Below, one piece after another: positions 20,434-41,023 of a stretch of DNA of 41,259 bases. Position 1 is the first letter of the stretch; the number at the start of each line of letters is the position of its first letter. This DNA comes from an uncultured Granulicella sp. Its GTDB lineage: Bacteria; Acidobacteriota; Terriglobia; Terriglobales; Acidobacteriaceae. The notes below the pieces were generated by a model that was not told the origin of the DNA, did no database searches, and saw nothing but the letters and a program-made list of their open reading frames with translations. The translations under genes were made by a program, and so were the position numbers. The stretch lies in contig CALMON010000246.1 of assembly GCA_937871785.1 (NCBI GenBank), positions 1 through 41,259 on the forward strand, given 5' to 3'.

Positions 20434-21702
20434 ATGAAGTTTTCCGTAAGAGTTGCCGTCGCTGTCTGGGCCTTGCTGGCCAGCTATGCGAGCGGTCAAA
20501 GATCCCGGCTGCCGCAGGCTCTCGCCGACGCCGCGCCGGTCTGCCCGGCAGCCGATCCTTCCGCGAGCGATCCCACCTATGTTCTGCGCAAGCCGGCTTT
20601 TGAGGCACTCGCAAAGGGCGATCAGGCGGAAGCGCGCCGGCTGATGCGGTGTGCCGTTGCGGCAAACGGGAAGGACCTGGTAGCGCTTCGTCAGCTTGTG
20701 TATCTGGACCTGAACGCAGGCTTCGATGATTTGGCGATCGAGGACATCGATACCCTGCGCTTACTCGGTGCCAGTGAACCGAGATTTGAAGCGCAACAAG
20801 GCTATCTGTACTTTAAACAAAAGAAATACGATGCCGCCCGCGAGGCTTTCCAGCGTGCGGCCGTCGGCGATGACCCGGAAGTGCGGAAGGATGCGTTGCG
20901 CGCCATCCAGGTAATCGACGCGGAGTACCCGAGACAAACCCTCGAGGTGGCTGTCGATGGACAGTACCTCAATCGCTTCAACGACGGCATTGTGGATGCG
21001 TATGCGCGCTACTTCCAGCGACTGGGCAAGCGGTCTCCGCTGCGCGCCTATGCGGGAATACGCTTGCTGCGCGATACCGCGAGCCAGGTCGGCCCTTTGC
21101 CGCAGATTTTTTCCGATAACGCGTTCCTGACAGGCGTTGGACTAGCCTTCCAACCCCACGCCGCGCCTTTCTTCGTTTCCGCGGAAGCGAACATGGCGTA
21201 TGTCTTTTACTCGGGCCGAAACGGCACGTCGGCGTTGGTGCCCGACTACCGCGCCGTAGCCGGATACTATCGTTTGTTTCGTCCGCCGCCGGAGTCGAAT
21301 CTACGCAAGCTATCGTTCCAGGCGAACGGGTCCTTTGGTTTTTACTCCCGCTACCAGCGCGACGCTATAGCCTACCTGCAGCCTCAGGAAACGTACGACC
21401 TGAACGGCGGCAAAGTGCGTTTTTCCCCGTTCTTCCAGCAGAGCTTTGCCTTCGATACCAACCAGCAGTTTTACAACAACACCGCAGAGCTGATTCCCGG
21501 GCTGCAGGTGTCGCTCGCGCATTATGGTGGGGCGGCTTTGCGGGTGGAATACGTGCGCGGCTATTACCTGCCGTTTCATACAGACTCCATTAATCCGTAT
21601 GGTCCCACCTACAACGATTTCCGCGTGCGCCTCACATTCGACAAGCAGTTGCTGTTTCATCGGGCTGAAGTCGCCGGGCCCTCTGTCGAAGGGCCCCATT
21701 GA
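20434..21702 (+). CDS. NfrA-like outer-membrane protein (TPR plus beta-barrel)
   Basis: A 422-residue exported protein: signal peptide (1-21, ending YASGQ), two to three TPR-like helical repeats (about 50-160, including YLYFKQKKYDAAREAFQRA), then a beta-rich region of alternating aromatic/polar strands ending near RLTFDKQLLFHRAEVAG, as in outer-membrane barrels. It resembles the C-terminal region of NfrA, the phage N4 receptor and glycan exporter of E. coli, but is less than half its length. The next gene, an NfrB-type glycosyltransferase, overlaps its stop by two bases, which supports this assignment. Likely role: outer-membrane export of the polysaccharide made by the neighbour. Confidence 0.8.
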   Translation: MKFSVRVAVAVWALLASYASGQRSRLPQALADAAPVCPAADPSASDPTYVLRKPAFEALAKGDQAEARRLMRCAVAANGKDLVALRQLVYLDLNAGFDDLAIEDIDTLRLLGASEPRFEAQQGYLYFKQKKYDAAREAFQRAAVGDDPEVRKDALRAIQVIDAEYPRQTLEVAVDGQYLNRFNDGIVDAYARYFQRLGKRSPLRAYAGIRLLRDTASQVGPLPQIFSDNAFLTGVGLAFQPHAAPFFVSAEANMAYVFYSGRNGTSALVPDYRAVAGYYRLFRPPPESNLRKLSFQANGSFGFYSRYQRDAIAYLQPQETYDLNGGKVRFSPFFQQSFAFDTNQQFYNNTAELIPGLQVSLAHYGGAALRVEYVRGYYLPFHTDSINPYGPTYNDFRVRLTFDKQLLFHRAEVAGPSVEGPH

Positions 21703-24700
21703 TTGCGGTCGAATGGATCCTGGCTATCATGTTCTTGCTGGGCGGCTTGAACGACGCCTTCCTGGACCTGGTGTTTTACTGCGCGCCCCTGCGTCGGCGC
21801 TTGGCGCAGGGACGTGCCAACCCGACCTGCGCCGAGCAGGAACTGCATGACACCCCGGAAAAAAGAATCGCCATCATGGTGCCGGCCTGGGATGAATCGG
21901 CCGTCATCGGCGCCATGCTCGAGTCCACCTGCGACCGCCTGGAATACAAGAACTACGACATCTTTGTGGGCACGTACCCGAACGACGAAGCCACGCAGAT
22001 GGAGGTGGCGCGCGCCGCCTTCGACCGGCAAAACATCCACCGTGTCGTTTGCCCCAACGAAGGACCGACGAGCAAAGCAGACTGTCTGAACTGGATCGTT
22101 GAAACGATCAAGCTGCGGGAGCGCGACTCAGGCGAGCGCTACGAAATCTTCTGCCTTCAGGATGCGGAAGACGTCGTGCATCCGCTTACCCTCAAAGTCT
22201 TTAACCGTTTCGTCCCGGAATACGACCTGGTGCAGCTTCCCGTCATTCCGTATGAACGCGGGCTGCACAAGGTAACCGGCGGCACCTATCTGGACGAGTT
22301 CGCCGAAGTTCATCTGAAGGGCCTCACTTCGCGGCTTGCCGTAGGAGGCATGGTGCCGTCCGCCGGCGTGGGCACGGCGTTCTCGCGCGCGGCCTGCGAT
22401 GAGCTTGCGGAGCAGACCAACCATGTGCTTTTCCCCGCCGTTTCGCTGACCGAGGATTATGACTTTTCCTTCCGCCTGTTTCGCAATCAGCGAAAATCGG
22501 GCATTGCCGAAGTCTGGATAAGACGCGAAGATGCGGCGGGCCGGGCGATCAAGGAGCTGGTCGCCATCCGCGAGTTCTTTCCCGCGAAGTTCGGCGACGC
22601 GGTTCGACAGAAACAGCGCTGGATGCTCGGCATCGCGTTTCAAGGTGCTCAGAAACTCGGCTGGGGACACGGCTGGCGCGAGCGCTATATGCTCTTCCGC
22701 GATCGCATTGGCGTCCTGTCGAGCTTGCTCAACCTGTGCGCGGCGTACATCTTTTTCGATCTATATTTCTCCATCGGCCTCAACATGCTGCATGGAAAGA
22801 CCTGGCTCGAAAGTCTGCCGCCGTTCTACCCCGATCACCGCCTGGTTTGGCTGATCGACGCCAACCTGCTTCTGCTGGCCAACCGAATCTTTCAGCGGGC
22901 CCACTTCGTCGGTCAGGTAGCAAGCCGCAGGCAAATGCTGCTGGCGCCGCTGCGCCTCTTGTGGTCGAACGTCATTGACTTTTACTGCACGTTCCATGCG
23001 ATCCGCCGCTTCACCCATTCCTCCCTCACCGGCAAACCGCTCAAATGGTTGAAGACCGCGCATGAGTTTCCGAATGTGGAGGCTCTGCTGCAACGTCACC
23101 GGCCCCTGGGAGACCTGCTGCTGGAGCACCGCTTCATTTCACCAGTGCAGTTGCGCAAGGCGCTCGGCATTCAAAGCCGCGCGGCGGACCGCGAAACGCC
23201 TCTCGGCCAGATCCTGTTGACGCAGCAGGCGATCACGCCGGAGCAGCTTTTGCAGGTACTGGACTTGCAACGTGAGTCACGCCAACTCTTGCTGCAATCG
23301 GAAGAGCAGGACGCTTTGTCGCACTCCACGGCGTCTCATCTGGCCGAGGCCGATCTGACCGCCGATCTGCCCGCCGAACTTGTCTACGAAGCGTCCTCCC
23401 TCGAGGTACCCTCCAAGGCGGCCGCCTCGGTTGAGTGGCTGCAGGCGCGCAAGCGAGTCGATCAGACCGACCCCGCGCTTCCGCTCCTGCTGCATCCGCG
23501 CCGACTCGTGCTTCTGCCGCGCCGGCAGCCGGACCTGACGGCAACCACTCCGCTCGTGGCAGCAACCCCGCTGCCGGCGCAAAGCCCTGCGCCGACGCCG
23601 TCCCCCGCGCCTTTGCTAACGATGCCCGATTCCCGTGCGCCGAAGGAGGCCACCACAGGCAGCCGCCCAGCCAACCTGCCGCCACCACCTTCCAGAGTGC
23701 CCGCCAGAACGCAGGATCGCGACCTGCTGGCTCCCCAAACGGGGATCCCAAGGATTGTTCCTGCCGTTGGATCAAGAAAGAGGTATGCTTTGCTTCATTC
23801 CGTCGCTTCCCGTTGGACGTCCTCTGCGCGGCACCCCCGTTTTGTCGTAGCGATCGGCACGCGGCCGGAGGCAGTCAAGCTCGCTCCGGTGATTGCCAAG
23901 CTTCGCGACCGTGCGTTGCAGACGGGGCAGAGCGATCCCGTTTACGTCTGCGCCACCGGGCAACACGGGCAGGCCGTCCGCGACGTGCTGGCGTTATACG
24001 GCATCGCCCCCGACCGCGACCTCGGGGTGCTCACCCCAGGCCAGTCGCTCGGCAACTTGTCCGCGCGGGTGTTGTCCGGCTTTGAGGAGGTGCTGCAGCA
24101 ACTACGGCCGGAATGGGTGATCGTGCAGGGCGACACGGCAACCACGGCGATGGCCGGCCTCGCCGCGTTCTACAACAAGATCAAGGTGGCGCATGTGGAG
24201 GCCGGCCTGCGCACCTACGACCTCGAGAATCCGTTTCCGGAGGAGTTCAACCGACGCATGGTGAGCCTCTTCACCACGGTGTATTTCGCCCCCACGCAGG
24301 CAGCGAAAAAGAACCTTCTGCTTGAAGGCGTTCTTTGCAGCAAGATTTTCGTCACGGGAAACACCGGGATCGACGCCCTGATGCGCCATGCAGAACGGCT
24401 GCAATTGCAGGCTGGTGCGCGGTCGAGAACAGCGGGGGCGTTGCCCGAGCAGTCGCCTCTGAATCGCCCTGTGCGCGTCTTGATCACCGCTCATCGTCGG
24501 GAAAATCTCGATCGCGGCATCGAGAACCTTTGCATCAGCCTTGGTGAACTGACGTTCAAATATCCCGGCCGCTTTCAGTTCGTGTGGCCGCTGCACCCGA
24601 ACCCGCAGATCGGCGAAATGGTTCGGCGAAGGCTGTCCGATACTCCCGGCGTCACCCTCACGCCGCCCGCGTCGTATGATCGCCTGCTGAAACTCCTCGA

Positions 24701-25052
24701 CCGCTGCGACCTTGTGCTTACCGATTCCGGCGGCCTCCAGGAGGAAGCTCCGTCCTTTGGCAAACCCGTGCTGATTCTCCGGGAAACGACGGAGCGGCCG
24801 GAAGGCGTGGATGCGGGCATCGCCTGGATGGTCGGCAACGATCCGACCAGAATCGTCAGCTACGTGGAGCGTTTGACCCGACGCATTGAGGCGCGCGAAG
24901 TGTTTCCTGCAGAAAACCCCTACGGCGACGGCCACGCAGCCGCACGCATCGCCAACTACTTTTCGGCGCGTCCTATGCAGGAGTTCGGGGAGGCTCAAGT
25001 TCTCCATACATTGCGGTCCTCTTCCGCCGAGAGGCAGCACGCCTCGCGGTAA
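21699..25052 (+). CDS. NfrB-type glycosyltransferase fused to MshEN c-di-GMP domain and UDP-GlcNAc 2-epimerase (WecB)
   Basis: A 1117-residue fusion. Residues 3-25: first membrane helix. About 55-330: GT2 glycosyltransferase with IMVPAWDES, an acidic DAED motif (about 154) and RQKQRW (Q/RxxRW, about 304). Further membrane helices lie at about 343-358 and 382-400. About 467-530: two MshEN-type c-di-GMP repeats, PLGDLLLEHRFISPVQLRKA and PLGQILLTQQAITPEQLLQV. A Pro/Ala-rich linker runs to about 705. From 711: a full UDP-GlcNAc 2-epimerase with GTRPEAVKLAP, VQGDTATTA, EAGLRTYDLENPFPEEFNRR, ITAHRREN and DSGGLQEEA, all catalytic residues kept. TTG start overlaps the NfrA-like stop. It should make UDP-ManNAc and polymerise it under c-di-GMP control (inference from E. 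coli NfrB/WecB). Confidence 0.9.
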   Translation: MIAVEWILAIMFLLGGLNDAFLDLVFYCAPLRRRLAQGRANPTCAEQELHDTPEKRIAIMVPAWDESAVIGAMLESTCDRLEYKNYDIFVGTYPNDEATQMEVARAAFDRQNIHRVVCPNEGPTSKADCLNWIVETIKLRERDSGERYEIFCLQDAEDVVHPLTLKVFNRFVPEYDLVQLPVIPYERGLHKVTGGTYLDEFAEVHLKGLTSRLAVGGMVPSAGVGTAFSRAACDELAEQTNHVLFPAVSLTEDYDFSFRLFRNQRKSGIAEVWIRREDAAGRAIKELVAIREFFPAKFGDAVRQKQRWMLGIAFQGAQKLGWGHGWRERYMLFRDRIGVLSSLLNLCAAYIFFDLYFSIGLNMLHGKTWLESLPPFYPDHRLVWLIDANLLLLANRIFQRAHFVGQVASRRQMLLAPLRLLWSNVIDFYCTFHAIRRFTHSSLTGKPLKWLKTAHEFPNVEALLQRHRPLGDLLLEHRFISPVQLRKALGIQSRAADRETPLGQILLTQQAITPEQLLQVLDLQRESRQLLLQSEEQDALSHSTASHLAEADLTADLPAELVYEASSLEVPSKAAASVEWLQARKRVDQTDPALPLLLHPRRLVLLPRRQPDLTATTPLVAATPLPAQSPAPTPSPAPLLTMPDSRAPKEATTGSRPANLPPPPSRVPARTQDRDLLAPQTGIPRIVPAVGSRKRYALLHSVASRWTSSARHPRFVVAIGTRPEAVKLAPVIAKLRDRALQTGQSDPVYVCATGQHGQAVRDVLALYGIAPDRDLGVLTPGQSLGNLSARVLSGFEEVLQQLRPEWVIVQGDTATTAMAGLAAFYNKIKVAHVEAGLRTYDLENPFPEEFNRRMVSLFTTVYFAPTQAAKKNLLLEGVLCSKIFVTGNTGIDALMRHAERLQLQAGARSRTAGALPEQSPLNRPVRVLITAHRRENLDRGIENLCISLGELTFKYPGRFQFVWPLHPNPQIGEMVRRRLSDTPGVTLTPPASYDRLLKLLDRCDLVLTDSGGLQEEAPSFGKPVLILRETTERPEGVDAGIAWMVGNDPTRIVSYVERLTRRIEAREVFPAENPYGDGHAAARIANYFSARPMQEFGEAQVLHTLRSSSAERQHASR
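23775..23792 (+). promoter_or_regulatory. Possible internal ribosome site before the epimerase domain
   Basis: AGAAAGAGG (23775-23783) is followed after 6 bases by an in-frame TTG (23790). Initiation here would give a free epimerase of about 420 residues, close to the length of stand-alone WecB. The site sits exactly at the end of the low-complexity linker. Confidence 0.45.
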
Positions 25053-25115
25053 GACTGCGGAGATACCCACCCCGCCGACGGTGCAAGTTCGTTATCCTGA
25101 ACCTTGGGAGCAGGA

Positions 25116-26744
25116 TTGCCGTTGACCGTTGCAGCGCACACAAACAAGGTACCTTTCTGGGTCACGCGCGCGCCGGGCGTGCCGTACTTTATGACCGACG
25201 ATGGGGAGCCGTGGCATCCCATCGGGCAGAACGACGCCGTGACCTGGCATGAGTTGGGGCCGCTCTATCGGCGACGCGACGTGGCGCAGGTGGAAGCGCA
25301 TCTGCGCTGGCTGGTAGAGCACGGCGTGACGTGCCTGCGCATGATGCTCGAATATGCGCAGGAGCGGCATCGCTACTTTGAGACCGGGTTTGTGCGCGGC
25401 GGCACCGCAACTTCAGCATCGAGCGAAATGCAGCCGAAGTGGTCGCCCGGGATGGTGCGTTTCTGGGACGACCTGTTCGCGCTTTGCGAAAAGGTCGGCC
25501 TGCGGCTGCTGCTGACACCCTATGACACATTCTGGATGTGGATCAAATGGAAGCAGCATCCCTACAACCAAAAGCTCGGCGGAGTGCTGCGGCATCCTTC
25601 CGAAGCGCTGCTTTCGGCGGAAATGCGCACGGCGATCAAGGCGCGGTTGACGTTTGCGGCAGAGCGGTGGGGAGGGTCGGGCGCGCTGTTTGCGTGGGAC
25701 CTGTGGAACGAAATCCACCCGGCGCATGCGAAAGATGAGGCCGCCCCCTTCCGAGGGTTTATCGACGATTTGAGCCAGCACGTCCGCGAGGTGGAAACGC
25801 GCAAGTGGGGGCGTGCGCACCTGCAGACCGTGAGCCTGTTCGGGCCGGAGCTCGGGTGGAAGCCGCATCTGCGCGCGGAGATGGAGGAAGCCATCTTTCG
25901 CCATCCTGCGCTCGACTTTGCCACGATACACATTTACCAGCATGGCACGATCGACGACCCGAAGAACACGGTCGACGCGGCGGTGGACATGGGCCGGCAT
26001 GTACGCGAGGCCGTACTGCAGGTGCGCGATGCGCGGCCGTTTCTGGATACCGAGCATGGGCCCATCCACCGCTACAAGGACAAGCGTGTGACGCTGCCGG
26101 AGGCCTTCGACGACGAGTACTTCCGACACATGCAGTGGGCGCACCTGGCAAGCGGCGGTGCCGGTGGCGGTATGCGCTGGCCGAACCGGAGCCCTCATAG
26201 CCTGACGCCCGGGATGCGGCGGGCGCAGGCGGCGCTTGCCGGGTTTCTGCCGTTTTTAGACTGGCTGCGGTTCGACCGCGGCAATGTGACCGACGAGCTG
26301 CGGGTGTGGGGGCCGCGTGGCGAGGTAGCGGCAGACAAGGTGGCGCGGTTCGGCTGCACCGATGTCGACCAGGCGGTCGTGTACCTGCTGCGACGCGATG
26401 TGCGACGGCGGGGAGAGATCATCCGGAAAGACCGGCCCGCTTTACGGCTGCGGGTGTGGGTGCCGGGACTACGCGAGGGACGGTACCAGGTGGTTTGCTG
26501 GGACACGGTCGGGGGCCGCATGGTAAGTACGGACGAGCAGGAGCTTGGTGGCGAGCGAGCGTGTGACGTCGCCGGGGTATTGGGCGATATGGCTGTAGCC
26601 CTGCGAGAGGTGGGTATGCCCCGTAGGCTCGTGGAGCCCAGGTCCGAACTTTCGGACCCGGACCCCTCAAGTACGGGACTTCAAGAGCCTCTGCAGGGCA
26701 TGCTATTCGGTAAGGATCAACCCGTTGCGATTGTGGAGTGCTGA
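25116..26744 (+). CDS. Glycoside hydrolase, clan GH-A (GH5-like)
   Basis: A protein of about 542 residues with a (beta/alpha)8 glycosidase core. The acid/base Glu is in WDLWNEIHP and the nucleophile Glu in PFLDTEHGP, at the ends of strands 4 and 7 as in clan GH-A. Other barrel elements: VEHGVTCLRMMLEYAQ and LLLTPYDTFWMWIKWKQHPYN. A C-terminal beta domain follows (about 400-510). No signal peptide is seen. Starts are ambiguous: TTG at 25116 has GGGAG at 5 bases; TTG at 25122 and 25104 are alternatives. It follows the glycosyltransferase gene by about 60 bases in the same direction, as polysaccharide operons often carry a hydrolase (for example BcsZ with cellulose). Substrate unproven. Confidence 0.82.
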   Translation: MPLTVAAHTNKVPFWVTRAPGVPYFMTDDGEPWHPIGQNDAVTWHELGPLYRRRDVAQVEAHLRWLVEHGVTCLRMMLEYAQERHRYFETGFVRGGTATSASSEMQPKWSPGMVRFWDDLFALCEKVGLRLLLTPYDTFWMWIKWKQHPYNQKLGGVLRHPSEALLSAEMRTAIKARLTFAAERWGGSGALFAWDLWNEIHPAHAKDEAAPFRGFIDDLSQHVREVETRKWGRAHLQTVSLFGPELGWKPHLRAEMEEAIFRHPALDFATIHIYQHGTIDDPKNTVDAAVDMGRHVREAVLQVRDARPFLDTEHGPIHRYKDKRVTLPEAFDDEYFRHMQWAHLASGGAGGGMRWPNRSPHSLTPGMRRAQAALAGFLPFLDWLRFDRGNVTDELRVWGPRGEVAADKVARFGCTDVDQAVVYLLRRDVRRRGEIIRKDRPALRLRVWVPGLREGRYQVVCWDTVGGRMVSTDEQELGGERACDVAGVLGDMAVALREVGMPRRLVEPRSELSDPDPSSTGLQEPLQGMLFGKDQPVAIVEC

Positions 26745-26754
26745 ATCAAGTAAG

Positions 26755-28011
26755 CTACTGCAGGCGGATGGGCTTGGCAGCGAGCTTGATGCGGAACAGG
26801 ACGTAGGGCTTGACGCGTAGGTCCTGCCCATTGTGCATTGAGGGCTGGTTGTAGAGCTGGTTGGCAGTGACGTAAAGGTAGCCGTCGTCGGAGAGGCTCA
26901 TGGTGTCGGGCCACAGCAGACGCGGATCGTGAACGAGAGTCTCCACTACATAGCCGCTGGCGAACGCCGGGTTGGGGCTGATTCGGGCGATGCTGCTGGA
27001 CGGGGCGGCCGTTGCGTAGATGTTGCCGTCGGCATCCGACTCGAGGCCGTCCGAGGATTCCTTGCCGGTAACCATCTTCACCTGTGCGTTGGTGGCAGTG
27101 GCGGAAAGGCTACGGTCGCGCAGGGCAGCCGTAGGCACGGAGTACAGCTTGGTGGCAGAAACCGGGCAGTAGAAAAGAAGGGAACCGTCAGCCGAGATGG
27201 CGAGTGAGTCGTTATTGAAGATGCCGGGCTTAATGGGTTTTCCGGGCTCGGCTTTGTACAGGGGACGGCCGTTGGCGAACATCAGGAAGCCGGGCTCGGC
27301 GCTGACCGAAGCGACGTTGTCCAGCTTGCGCCATGCCTGGCCTGTGCGAAGGTCCACGATAATGAAGCCGGTCGGGCCTTTCTCAGAGGAGTCGGTGATG
27401 TAGGCGATACCGTGAAGGCGATCGAGACTGTACGCTTTGTCGATCACCGGGGTACCGTAGCGCAGGTCGAAGCGGACGTCGTTCAAATAGCTGGTCGGCC
27501 CGGCAATGGTCGGCGGGAGAAGAATGCTCTTGAGAATTTTGTTCGTGGCGAGATCGATAGCGACGAGCTTCGGTCCGCCCGGTACAGCGTTCTTGAGCAT
27601 CGGCGAGCCTGTATCGAGCACCCACAAAACGTTGTCAGGGGCGACCACGACGGACTGCACCGAAACGAAATGAGTTTCGTTCTGCTTCTGATCGTTGTAG
27701 TGGGTAGGGTCTGGGACATTGCGTCCAGGCCAGTCGTTGACTTCGGCATTCGGATACGCGACAGCCTTGCCGTTGACGACTTCAGCGACGGTGAAGGGAA
27801 CGTCGTCACCCCAGCGGGGGAAATTGACGAAGATGCGGTTGGTGCGCGAAACGGTGACGCCGGTAAGCATGGGACCGTAGAAAGTAGCGACAGTTTCCAG
27901 CTCGCCGACAGGAGTGTCCTGCGTGAGCCTGCCGGCGGGGGCCTGGGCGAAAAGCGAGGTGGAAGCGACGAGCGCGGTGAGCAGGAAAGGAGCGAGGTGG
28001 GTGCGACTCAT
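26755..28011 (-). CDS. Secreted major royal jelly protein/Yellow-family beta-propeller
   Basis: A 418-residue exported protein with signal peptide (MSRTHLAPFLLTALVASTSLFAQ). It has the MRJP/Yellow-type pattern: GVTVSRTNRIFVNFPRWGDD, then VQSVVVAPDNVLWVLDTG, YLNDVRFDLR, YITDSSEKGPTGFIIVDL and a late DTMSLSDDGYLYVTANQL, consistent with a six-bladed propeller. Bacterial members are usually annotated as gluconolactonase-like or royal-jelly family proteins; catalytic activity is not established. It converges on the glycoside hydrolase gene with only 10 bases between stops. An in-frame start at 28119 exists but the signal peptide marks 28011. Confidence 0.87.
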   Translation of the reverse strand: MSRTHLAPFLLTALVASTSLFAQAPAGRLTQDTPVGELETVATFYGPMLTGVTVSRTNRIFVNFPRWGDDVPFTVAEVVNGKAVAYPNAEVNDWPGRNVPDPTHYNDQKQNETHFVSVQSVVVAPDNVLWVLDTGSPMLKNAVPGGPKLVAIDLATNKILKSILLPPTIAGPTSYLNDVRFDLRYGTPVIDKAYSLDRLHGIAYITDSSEKGPTGFIIVDLRTGQAWRKLDNVASVSAEPGFLMFANGRPLYKAEPGKPIKPGIFNNDSLAISADGSLLFYCPVSATKLYSVPTAALRDRSLSATATNAQVKMVTGKESSDGLESDADGNIYATAAPSSSIARISPNPAFASGYVVETLVHDPRLLWPDTMSLSDDGYLYVTANQLYNQPSMHNGQDLRVKPYVLFRIKLAAKPIRLQ

Positions 28012-28146
28012 ACGCGTTTGGATGCATGCCGGGGAGAGAGCGTTCTCGGCCGGGTAGACATGTTCGCCGCTCCATCGCTCCATGTTGCCGCAGGTGAATG
28101 TGGCAGCATGGAGCGACAACAGCGTGCGTGAGGACGAGTAGCTTGG

Positions 28147-39185: not shown

Positions 39186-39373
39186 AGCGAAAGCGTAGTC
39201 CATGCTTCGCGGCCGCCGCCAGGGCTCACCATAAATGTTGCTCCCAAGGAACTGCTTCGCTGCGGCGAACTGATTGCTTTTACCAACAACGATAAACTTT
39301 GCGGTTGGGCATTTCTGCATCGGTGATGCAGCCGCCGCATCCAAACAAACTCGGAGAGAATGATTCAACAAAC

Positions 39374-41023
39374 ATGACCAGCCAGCCCAGCGCCGAGTGT
39401 TTACCGATCACGGCTTTGCCGCAAATAAGCGCCCTGTTTCGCGATTACACTGACGTGGCCGCGGCCATGGAGCCGGCGGCCCTGCGGCGCTGGTACCCGG
39501 CTGACCCTTTCGACATGAAATGGGCGCAGCGGTCGCCGGTGCTCGAACCGAGCCGTCGGGAGCAGCTAACCGACGCGTTGGCCGCGCAGCAGCAGGAGTT
39601 CGGGGCGGGGACGGCAGCTCGCGCCAATGTCGAGCGCCTCCGCAACGGAGCAGCGGCCGTGGTCACCGGTCAACAGGTGGGGCTGTTTGGCGGTCCTCTG
39701 CTGACCCTGTTGAAAGCCGCGACAGCGGTGCGTAAAGCAGCTGATGCGACGCGGGAAACGGGTCGCGAGCACGTTCCGGTTTTCTGGCTGGCGAGTGAAG
39801 ATCACGATCTCGCCGAAGTCGACCAGGTCGCTCTGCTTTCAAAGAAGGCCGTGGAAACACTGCGGCTCGGAACTCCGCTTGAGAAGCCCGTGCCAGTCGG
39901 TGGACTTTCCGTCGGAAACGTTGAAGCGGCGTTGGAGCAGGCAAGTGAGCTGCTGGGGTGGGCCCCCATCGCCGATGTGTTGCGCGAGTGCTACGGCCCC
40001 GACGCGCAGGGTGTAAGTCCGACGTGGGCGCAGGCGTTTGGTCGGCTGATCGCGCGCGTCTTTGCGGAGCAGGGATTGATTGTGATGGACGCGGCGTCCC
40101 GGGAGTTCCACACGCTGGGCGCTCCGGTGCTGCGGGCAGCTCTGGAGCGCGCGGGGGAGCTGGAAGCCGCGCTGCTGGCGCGGTCGGCGGAGTTGGTGGC
40201 GGCGGGCTACCATGCACAGGTGCTCGTGTCGCCGGCGCACTCGCTGCTGTTTCTGCTGGATGCAGACACCGGCACGCGGCTGCCGCTGCGTCGGCTGGAA
40301 GACGGCAGTTGGAAGGCGGGGGCGCGAGGGTATTCGACAGCCGATCTGCTGGCTGTACTTGAAGCCGAGCCGGAGCGCCTGAGCCCGAATGCCCTGCTGC
40401 GACCGGTGTTTCAGGACGCGATTCTCCCGACAGCCGCTTACATTGGCGGGCCGGCCGAAATCGCATACTTCGCGCAGAGCGAAGTGGTGTACACCAAGCT
40501 GCTGGGCCGGGTCACGCCGGTGCTGCCGCGGCTTTCAGCCACGCTGGTAGAGCCCGCGGTGGGGCAATTGCTGGCGCAGCATGAGGTGTCACTGCCGGCG
40601 CTGTTTGAGACTCGCGACGCCGCGGGGCTGGCGCAGCGGCTGGGAGCGCGCGCGATGCCGATCGAAGCCAAACGCAGGCTTGCTGCGGTGGGCAACGCGA
40701 TGGACGCGGAACTTTCGGCGCTCACAGACTACATGACAGCGATGTCCGCCGACCTGGGGCGCGCGGCAGGCGTCAGCGCGAGCAAGATGCGCTATCAGAT
40801 GAACCGGTTGCGACGTATGTCGGCAAGCTTTGAGGTGCAAAAGCAGGCGCACCTGCTGAAGCACGCGACGGCGCTGATGTTGAGCCTTTTTCCCGAGGAG
40901 CATCTGCAGGAGCGGCTGCTGGCGGGCGTGTGGTTTCTGGCGCGATATGGCGAAACGCTGCCCGCGCTGCTGGTGGAGCACGCCGGTCAGGAATGCGCCG
41001 GACACCGGGTGATCAGCCTTTGA
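39374..41023 (+). CDS. bshC: Bacillithiol biosynthesis cysteine-adding enzyme BshC
   Basis: BshC adds cysteine to glucosamine-malate in the last step of bacillithiol synthesis. At 549 residues it is of family length. Signatures: AAVVTGQQVGLFGGPLLTLLKAA (about residues 93-116; split motif TGQQVGLFGGP), FWLASEDHDLAEVD (a cytidylyltransferase-like HxxD region), LRPVFQDAILPTAAYIGGP and AEIAYFAQ, and a C-terminal coiled coil with RLRRMS. The ATG at 39374 is preferred; the open frame upstream (to 39299) overlaps the divergent Nudix leader. Its presence implies that bacillithiol is the main low-molecular-weight thiol of this organism, which bears on the reading of the GCS2, DinB and peroxidase genes in the window. 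Confidence 0.95.
   Translation: MTSQPSAECLPITALPQISALFRDYTDVAAAMEPAALRRWYPADPFDMKWAQRSPVLEPSRREQLTDALAAQQQEFGAGTAARANVERLRNGAAAVVTGQQVGLFGGPLLTLLKAATAVRKAADATRETGREHVPVFWLASEDHDLAEVDQVALLSKKAVETLRLGTPLEKPVPVGGLSVGNVEAALEQASELLGWAPIADVLRECYGPDAQGVSPTWAQAFGRLIARVFAEQGLIVMDAASREFHTLGAPVLRAALERAGELEAALLARSAELVAAGYHAQVLVSPAHSLLFLLDADTGTRLPLRRLEDGSWKAGARGYSTADLLAVLEAEPERLSPNALLRPVFQDAILPTAAYIGGPAEIAYFAQSEVVYTKLLGRVTPVLPRLSATLVEPAVGQLLAQHEVSLPALFETRDAAGLAQRLGARAMPIEAKRRLAAVGNAMDAELSALTDYMTAMSADLGRAAGVSASKMRYQMNRLRRMSASFEVQKQAHLLKHATALMLSLFPEEHLQERLLAGVWFLARYGETLPALLVEHAGQECAGHRVISL

Follow-up and report, generated by a model that had tools for sequence, protein, structure and literature searches.

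A synthase-epimerase gene in a Granulicella contig

We analysed a 41,259-nucleotide stretch of DNA from an uncultured Granulicella sp. (contig CALMON010000246.1 of assembly GCA_937871785.1; hereafter the window), in which a single gene encodes an NfrB-like membrane synthase joined to a WecB-type UDP-N-acetylglucosamine (UDP-GlcNAc) 2-epimerase. The gene (21699..25052, + strand) starts with a TTG codon at 21699, which overlaps the stop codon of the gene upstream, and ends with a stop codon at 25050-25052; it encodes 1117 residues without an internal stop. The protein consists of an NfrB-like membrane synthase with a family 2 glycosyltransferase (GT2) domain, two MshEN repeats, a long linker and the epimerase, in this order. 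An earlier note on this DNA, made from the sequence alone, had described GT2, MshEN and WecB as covalently joined in one 1117-residue frame. Its coordinates and length proved exact, the profile matches were far beyond chance, and the same architecture was found in Granulicella rosea and in another genome of the family, G736.

The GT2 catalytic domain and its membrane helices occupy residues 1-462 (21699..23084, +). This part matched PF13641 (residues 56-310, E 1.7e-33) and PF13632 in Pfam, as well as the NCBIfam models PRK15489 (NfrB-like; residues 7-548, 1.3e-144, 483 bits for an equivalog cut-off of 537) and NF008411 (NfrB; residues 6-530, 7e-138, 461 bits for an equivalog cut-off of 1170). 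It contains the glycosyltransferase motifs DAED (155-158), TED (251-253) and QxxRW (304-308), which were matched to those of Escherichia coli NfrB; D155, E157, D158, T251, E252, D253, Q304, R307 and W308 were invariant across the 10 NfrB-type proteins aligned (alignment A1). AlphaFold predicted helices at 2-37, 326-364, 380-407 and 416-444, which fit membrane helices. The model of the whole fusion (24 alignment rows) had a mean predicted local distance difference test score (pLDDT) of 64.8, the GT domain being confident. A mixed alignment of NfrB and WecB sequences (A2) misplaced the MshEN columns; the alignment that was folded (A3) contained no WecB rows. When the model was searched with Foldseek, UDP-GlcNAc 2-epimerases ranked first and BcsA (5ej1) came at rank 47 (E 1.2e-12, 555 columns).

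The two MshEN repeats, which belong to a type that binds cyclic di-GMP (c-di-GMP), span residues 468-524 (23100..23270, +). NF053729, a model of the MshE-type c-di-GMP motif, matched two stretches, the best one at residues 501-531 with 43.5 bits for a cut-off of 38, and AlphaFold predicted helices at 470-476, 482-492, 502-508 and 514-541, i.e. the four-helix layout of MshEN_N. The tandem repeats claimed in the earlier note are thus present, with the refinement that they represent only the MshEN_N subdomain, MshEN_C being absent. At the 16 positions of Vibrio cholerae MshE (VcMshE) that were checked, the window protein was equal at 11 (L10, G11, D12, L25, L29, Q32, L39, G40, L54, L58 and Q61) and changed at R9, G18, D41 and G47, while the match at R38 depended on gap placement. 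Ten key positions (L10, G11, L25, L29, Q32, L39, G40, L54, L58 and Q61) were kept in all three fusions that we found. In VcMshE, MshEN_N does most of the c-di-GMP binding and the C-terminal subdomain gives one contact, Asp108; the affinities of MshEN proteins range from 14 nM to 0.5 μM, and MshEN fusions with glycosyltransferases have already been noted (PMC5013675; here and below, papers are cited for those of their passages that were available). On this basis, the repeats of the fusions are likely to bind c-di-GMP. GGDEF matches numbered 8 in the window genome, 21 in G. rosea and 8 in G736, and no diguanylate cyclase was found among the 28 open reading frames of the window scanned against Pfam.

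The repeats are followed by a Pro/Ala-rich linker (residues 531-694, 23289..23780, +), which is predicted to be disordered (pLDDT <50 for residues 538-712). In residues 576-694, identity among the three fusions was 15-24% and the differences in length were in-frame. A short segment comes next (residues 695-715, 23781..23843, +), with the motif R/K-Y/F-x-x-LHxVASxW at 695-706 and a helix predicted, with low confidence, at 693-708. It is kept in the three fusions and in a degenerate frame of genome G017, described below; when 398 genomes of the family were searched with residues 695-1117, no others among the matches listed aligned from the first residue of the segment.

The remainder of the protein is a WecB-type, non-hydrolysing UDP-GlcNAc 2-epimerase domain (residues 716-1087, 23844..24959, +). 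It matched TIGR00236 (wecB) over residues 716-1086 (2.8e-111, 372 bits for a cut-off of 210), and its closest solved relative was E. coli WecB (1f6d/1vgv, E 6.7e-92). R10, K15, D95, E117, E131, H213, R214, S290 and E296 (E. coli WecB numbering) are kept in all three fusions; we take R10, K15, D95, E117, E131 and H213 to be active-site residues of WecB. The Pfam matches were in agreement as regards both enzymes. The epimerase is complete and in frame, as had been claimed. TIGR00236 matched nothing but the fused copy in the genomes of the window, G. rosea and G736, which are 83%, 99% and 99% complete; matches to WecG/TagA-family transferases numbered 3, 1 and 2, respectively. According to a published rule, wecB immediately adjoins nfrB in those species that have no other WecB (PMC8669469). 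A sole, fused WecB fits this rule, and the fusion goes one step further.

Occurrence and origin of the fused gene

With residues 1-560 as the query, 26 of the 396 phylum genomes searched gave a match, which in 15 of them covered most of the GT domain. Two of these 15 had a frame of >1100 amino acids (aa), namely the window genome and G. rosea DSM 18704 (G258, contig NZ_FZOU01000014.1), whose fusion is 68% identical to that of the window over its full length. Over the stretch compared with G. rosea, just two genes were conserved, the fusion and the gene preceding it. A search of 398 family genomes gave a match in 36, four of which covered the GT domain, and revealed the third fusion, in G736, 56% identical to the window's. 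Among the three proteins, the GT domains were 72-85% identical, the MshEN repeats 49-79% and the epimerases 57-67%. The ratios of nonsynonymous to synonymous substitution rates (dN/dS), computed with an NG86-like script at nearly saturated synonymous sites, were about 0.09-0.19 for the GT domain, 0.14-0.49 for the MshEN repeats, 0.21-0.27 for the epimerase and 0.36-0.81 for the linker. These ratios indicate that the GT and epimerase domains are both under purifying selection. The frame has stayed open across a linker that changes fast, and both enzymes are conserved; selection therefore seems to act on the fused form.

Since nfrB is often found close to wecB, a false join of neighbouring genes by a frameshift, the loss of a stop codon in a single strain or a misassembly was thinkable. 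This is refuted by the occurrence of the fusion in three separate assemblies, one of them from a named strain, with the frame kept across the linker and indels that are in-frame. In particular, the G. rosea and G736 proteins exclude that the linker contains a frameshift or was wrongly assembled, which the earlier note had named as a refuting case, and we consider the chance of an artefact to be negligible.

The fusion is rare: it was found in 3 of the 398 genomes of the family. In the genus of G. rosea, NfrB was detected at E 1e-20 or better in 2 of 62 genomes, in both cases fused; at the same threshold, none of 33 NfrB-bearing Pseudomonadota was fused (398 genomes of the phylum of an Achromobacter locus; longest frame 794 aa). 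A species-wide contig collection was also scanned; of 567 confirmed relatives the 80 best were kept, and the only fused one among them was G. rosea itself, a sample that leaves room for rare fusions in distant groups. In 53 of these 80 NfrB loci, a WecB homologue lay within the fetched stretch, some of the stretches ending at contig ends: it was fused in 1, on the same strand upstream in 46, on the same strand downstream in 3 and on the opposite strand in 3. When residues 695-1117 were used as the query in the family, 220 of 398 genomes matched and, among the matches listed, only the three fusions had frames of >700 aa.

Other long frames were rejected. Those of NfrB in Burkholderiaceae (L149, L165 and L169; 1068-1440 aa from stop to stop) are not fusions, their Arg-rich N-terminal extensions reading like an out-of-frame upstream gene, and frames of >1100 aa in G266, G144, G598 and others matched over only ~80-130 GT residues and were taken as other GT2 proteins. 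A genome of the same class (G058) has a 667-aa frame (L007:1468-3471, +) that reads as a WecB-type epimerase followed by GT2-like sequence, i.e. another architecture with the opposite order. No description of an NfrB-epimerase fusion was found in searches of an open-access library, which leaves out subscription papers and most preprints; the suggestion that the architecture may be undescribed stands within this scope.

In a tree of NfrB proteins (94 rows, quick method), the three fusions formed one clade with a Shimodaira-Hasegawa-like approximate likelihood ratio test (SH-aLRT) support of 100. The nearest rows were L092, from Elusimicrobiota, and that of G508, a genome of the same family, with a group support of 92. 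In a tree of epimerases (90 rows), the three fused domains, two duplicate rows (L071 and L072, second copies of two of the fused domains) and the G017 frame formed one clade (100/100), for which no nfr-linked WecB stood out as a clear sister. In locus L092 (L092:2-4270, +), from a metagenome-assembled genome, the genes run nfrA-nfrB-wecB, and only 12 bases separate the nfrB stop from a GTG start of wecB. This likely gives a picture of the state before fusion. A fusion by stop loss needs nfrB before wecB; wecB comes first in 46 of the 80 loci. A simple history would then comprise the loss of the nfrB stop, the loss of MshEN_C and the growth of the linker.

The frame of G017, a genome of the window's genus, comprises 669 aa (L193:8560-10569, -), with a disordered-looking N-terminus/linker, an LHxV..W segment and a degenerate epimerase. 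This epimerase has lost R10, K15, E117, H213 and R214 and sits on a long branch within the fusion clade. The frame adjoins genes that read as rml-type, and the family search gave no NfrB match in this genome. It may be a decayed relic of the fusion, with a pseudo-enzyme in place of the epimerase.

The NfrA-like partner and other neighbours

The gene preceding the fusion (20434..21702, +) encodes a protein with a predicted signal peptide, tetratricopeptide repeat (TPR) helices at 49-164 and 12 strands at 168-407 (AlphaFold, four rows, mean pLDDT 76). Its stop codon overlaps the TTG start of the fusion by 4 bp (TTGA), an overlap that is also found in G. rosea. Foldseek returned BcsC, the cellulose exporter, as its first two matches (E 6.2e-9 and 1.4e-7, TM-scores of ~0.3), and the only families among its Pfam matches were TPR families, below the cut-off. 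The partner is conserved beside the other fusions (64% identity in G. rosea; adjoining the fusion in G736), and in Elusimicrobiota, G508 and G346 homologues of it adjoin NfrB genes. By prediction, it has the layout of an NfrA-type exporter, with a TPR domain before an outer-membrane barrel, and it lies next to the NfrB-like gene. The earlier note named NfrA as the export partner; the gene found here agrees with this in its position and predicted layout, but no sequence link of its barrel to the large nfrA genes of other loci was found. A profile that had at one point suggested such a link was dropped, since the link disappeared once the profile was restricted to barrel columns. We call the protein NfrA-like by place and predicted layout, membership in the NfrA family being unsupported by the barrel sequence.

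Two relatives of this pair lack an epimerase partner in what was searched. In G346 (L058:7137-10634, +), an NfrB-type GT (614-aa frame) is preceded by a member of the same NfrA-like barrel family, and the fetched stretch had no WecB match. In G508 (L191:1312-4320, +), an NfrA-like gene is followed by a 470-aa NfrB-type GT without MshEN, and no WecB match was found in the genome, which is 76% complete.

On the other side of the fusion, 51 bases past its stop, the window has a 546-aa frame (25104-26744, +) with a WDLWNE motif and a weak match to the DUF5060 protein 9gmj (E 1.8e-5). It had no Pfam match, and no counterpart turned up in the loci fetched for the other two fusions. Its product is perhaps a glycoside hydrolase, which could trim the polymer. 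The window also encodes a bacterial member of the Major royal jelly protein family (26755-28119, -; PF03022, E 3e-29) and a homologue of BshC, involved in bacillithiol synthesis (39299-41023, +; PF10079, 1e-73).

Proposed function and comparison with known systems

We propose, with a probability of about three in four, that the fusion is an NfrB-type, c-di-GMP-gated synthase of a polymer containing N-acetylmannosamine (ManNAc), fed by its own epimerase. On the cytoplasmic face, the C-terminal WecB domain would make UDP-ManNAc from UDP-GlcNAc, and the N-terminal GT2 domain would polymerise ManNAc, either by itself or as part of a mixed polymer, the chain passing through its own membrane helices. 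c-di-GMP bound to the MshEN repeats between the two enzymes would switch the GT on, and the product of the overlapping upstream gene would provide a TPR/beta-barrel exit across the outer membrane. One might speculate that the long disordered linker raises the local concentration of UDP-ManNAc or channels it. Free WecB is a dimer, and the equilibrium of its reaction is unfavourable to UDP-ManNAc. A more elaborate version, which we hold as tentative and rather doubtful, is that one polypeptide forms a complete, c-di-GMP-gated machine leading from UDP-GlcNAc to a ManNAc polymer: the epimerase would have replaced MshEN_C, its dimer would hold two synthases, c-di-GMP would set both activities, and local UDP-ManNAc would be kept above the unfavourable equilibrium.

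Several observations weigh against our proposal or some part of it. By the NCBIfam rule, and on its profile scores, the fusion is a homologue of NfrB and not an equivalog. The missing MshEN_C, the changed residues and longer spacer of the repeats, their faster divergence and their weak match to VcMshE, all taken up below, speak against gating by c-di-GMP. The epimerase half of the AlphaFold model has low confidence, just two aligned rows covering it, because alignment A3 contained no WecB rows. In G736, there is no overlap between the stop of the partner gene and the first ATG of the fusion, and a barrel-only profile of the partner, run against the open reading frames of the fetched loci, recovered 8 training rows and L139, with nothing else at E 10 and no large nfrA. 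The fusion is patchy even within its own family. The window genome being 83% complete, a second WecB could be missing from the assembly, and UDP-ManNAc may not be reserved for the fused synthase, since WecG/TagA-family transferases are present in the three genomes. This last point bears on the idea that the tethered epimerase serves the whole cell, feeding for instance those transferases, and that the fusion is an accident of co-expression; the lack of any other WecB match in these genomes speaks for it as well. However, in 49 of the best 80 NfrB loci the fetched stretch carries wecB as a separate gene on the strand of nfrB (46 upstream, 3 downstream), and this linkage, together with the published neighbour rule (PMC8669469), ties the function of the epimerase to NfrB. 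Nor would a role in supply only explain why the frame has been kept across a linker that evolves fast. We therefore regard such a general role as improbable.

Another donor is conceivable, the synthase using UDP-GlcNAc, or GlcNAc and ManNAc in alternation, and the epimerase tuning the ratio of donors for a mixed polymer. The evidence on the donor in the E. coli papers is indeed genetic (PMC8669469, PMC8669472), but it points to UDP-ManNAc: the effect of Nfr on motility is lowered by the loss of wecB and enhanced by the loss of wecC, and infection by N4 needs wecB (PMC8669469). This makes a different donor unlikely, though somewhat less so than an epimerase working for the whole cell. It could also be that the MshEN repeats are vestigial, with a constitutive synthase limited only by its own substrate supply. 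Free-standing NfrB proteins continue alignably past the repeats, whereas the fusions turn into linker there and lack MshEN_C (alignment A1); their spacer between the repeats is 3 residues longer than that of VcMshE, R9 is replaced by Pro (as it is in E. coli NfrB) and G18 by Arg, D41 and G47 vary, and phmmer gave only a weak match of the MshEN part to VcMshE (5htl, E 0.43). The repeats also diverge faster than the GT domain, both in identity (49-79% vs 72-85%) and in dN/dS, and G508 has an NfrB-type GT without MshEN. Against this stand the ten key positions kept in all three fusions, and the finding that MshEN_N carries most of the binding in VcMshE (PMC5013675). Vestigial repeats are in our opinion quite unlikely, and we retain a c-di-GMP-gated synthase as the preferred reading.

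In the papers that we consulted, the use of UDP-ManNAc by NfrB-type synthases rests on E. coli genetics and on gene neighbourhood. E. coli NfrB depends for its function on residues of both its GT and its MshEN part, and also on c-di-GMP and WecB; a ManNAc polymer was proposed in 2021 (PMC8669469, PMC8669472). A natural synthase-epimerase fusion, kept in three genomes where it is the sole WecB match, provides independent evidence for the link between NfrB and UDP-ManNAc and, as the earlier note had argued, supports the E. coli model. It also suggests that an MshEN sensor lacking its C-terminal subdomain can be placed between two enzymes, and it offers, in a single protein, a direct test of glycan chemistry from UDP-GlcNAc with or without c-di-GMP.

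E. coli NfrB, the NGR glycan synthase of the nfrBA-ybcH operon, shares with the fusion the GT2 motifs, the membrane helices and the MshEN repeats, including the Pro at R9, as well as an exporter gene that overlaps nfrB and, genetically, a dependence on WecB (PMC8669469). It differs in that it has no epimerase, WecB being encoded by a separate gene of the enterobacterial common antigen pathway, and is 39-40% identical to the fusion over the GT/MshEN part; unlike it, the fusion lacks MshEN_C and has its exporter gene before the synthase, not after it. The WecB/MnaA epimerases 1f6d and 6vlb resemble the fused domain over its whole length (41-43% identity in the Foldseek rows) and in their active-site residues, but the solved entries are free-standing, whereas the fused one forms the C-terminal part of a membrane synthase and follows a long linker and a short conserved segment. 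With the cellulose system, the likeness is in the Foldseek matches to BcsA (5ej1) for the fusion and BcsC for the partner. BcsA-BcsC and PgaCD-PgaA also combine a c-di-GMP-controlled GT2 synthase with a TPR/barrel exporter, but they use other c-di-GMP modules and are not known to have a fused donor-making enzyme. A GT2 operon of Clostridioides difficile with WecB, a family 113 glycoside hydrolase (GH113) and a deacetylase likewise associates a GT2 polymerase with WecB, and a ManNAc-rich polymer has been proposed for it; its genes are separate, and the available passages of the paper mention no MshEN (PMC7710045).

Another parallel is provided by the nfr-linked wecB genes of Pseudomonas, Achromobacter, Nitrosomonas, Elusimicrobiota and others, in which a single stretch encodes both enzymes (52 of the best 80 loci, the fused one not counted). 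They are, however, separate proteins, wecB coming before nfrB in 46 of the 80 loci and nfrB before wecB on one strand in 3, one of which, the Elusimicrobiota locus L092, groups with the fusions. The linkage of nfrB and wecB as neighbours has already been published, and the gene described here is a true, rare fusion that represents a new architecture of this known system.

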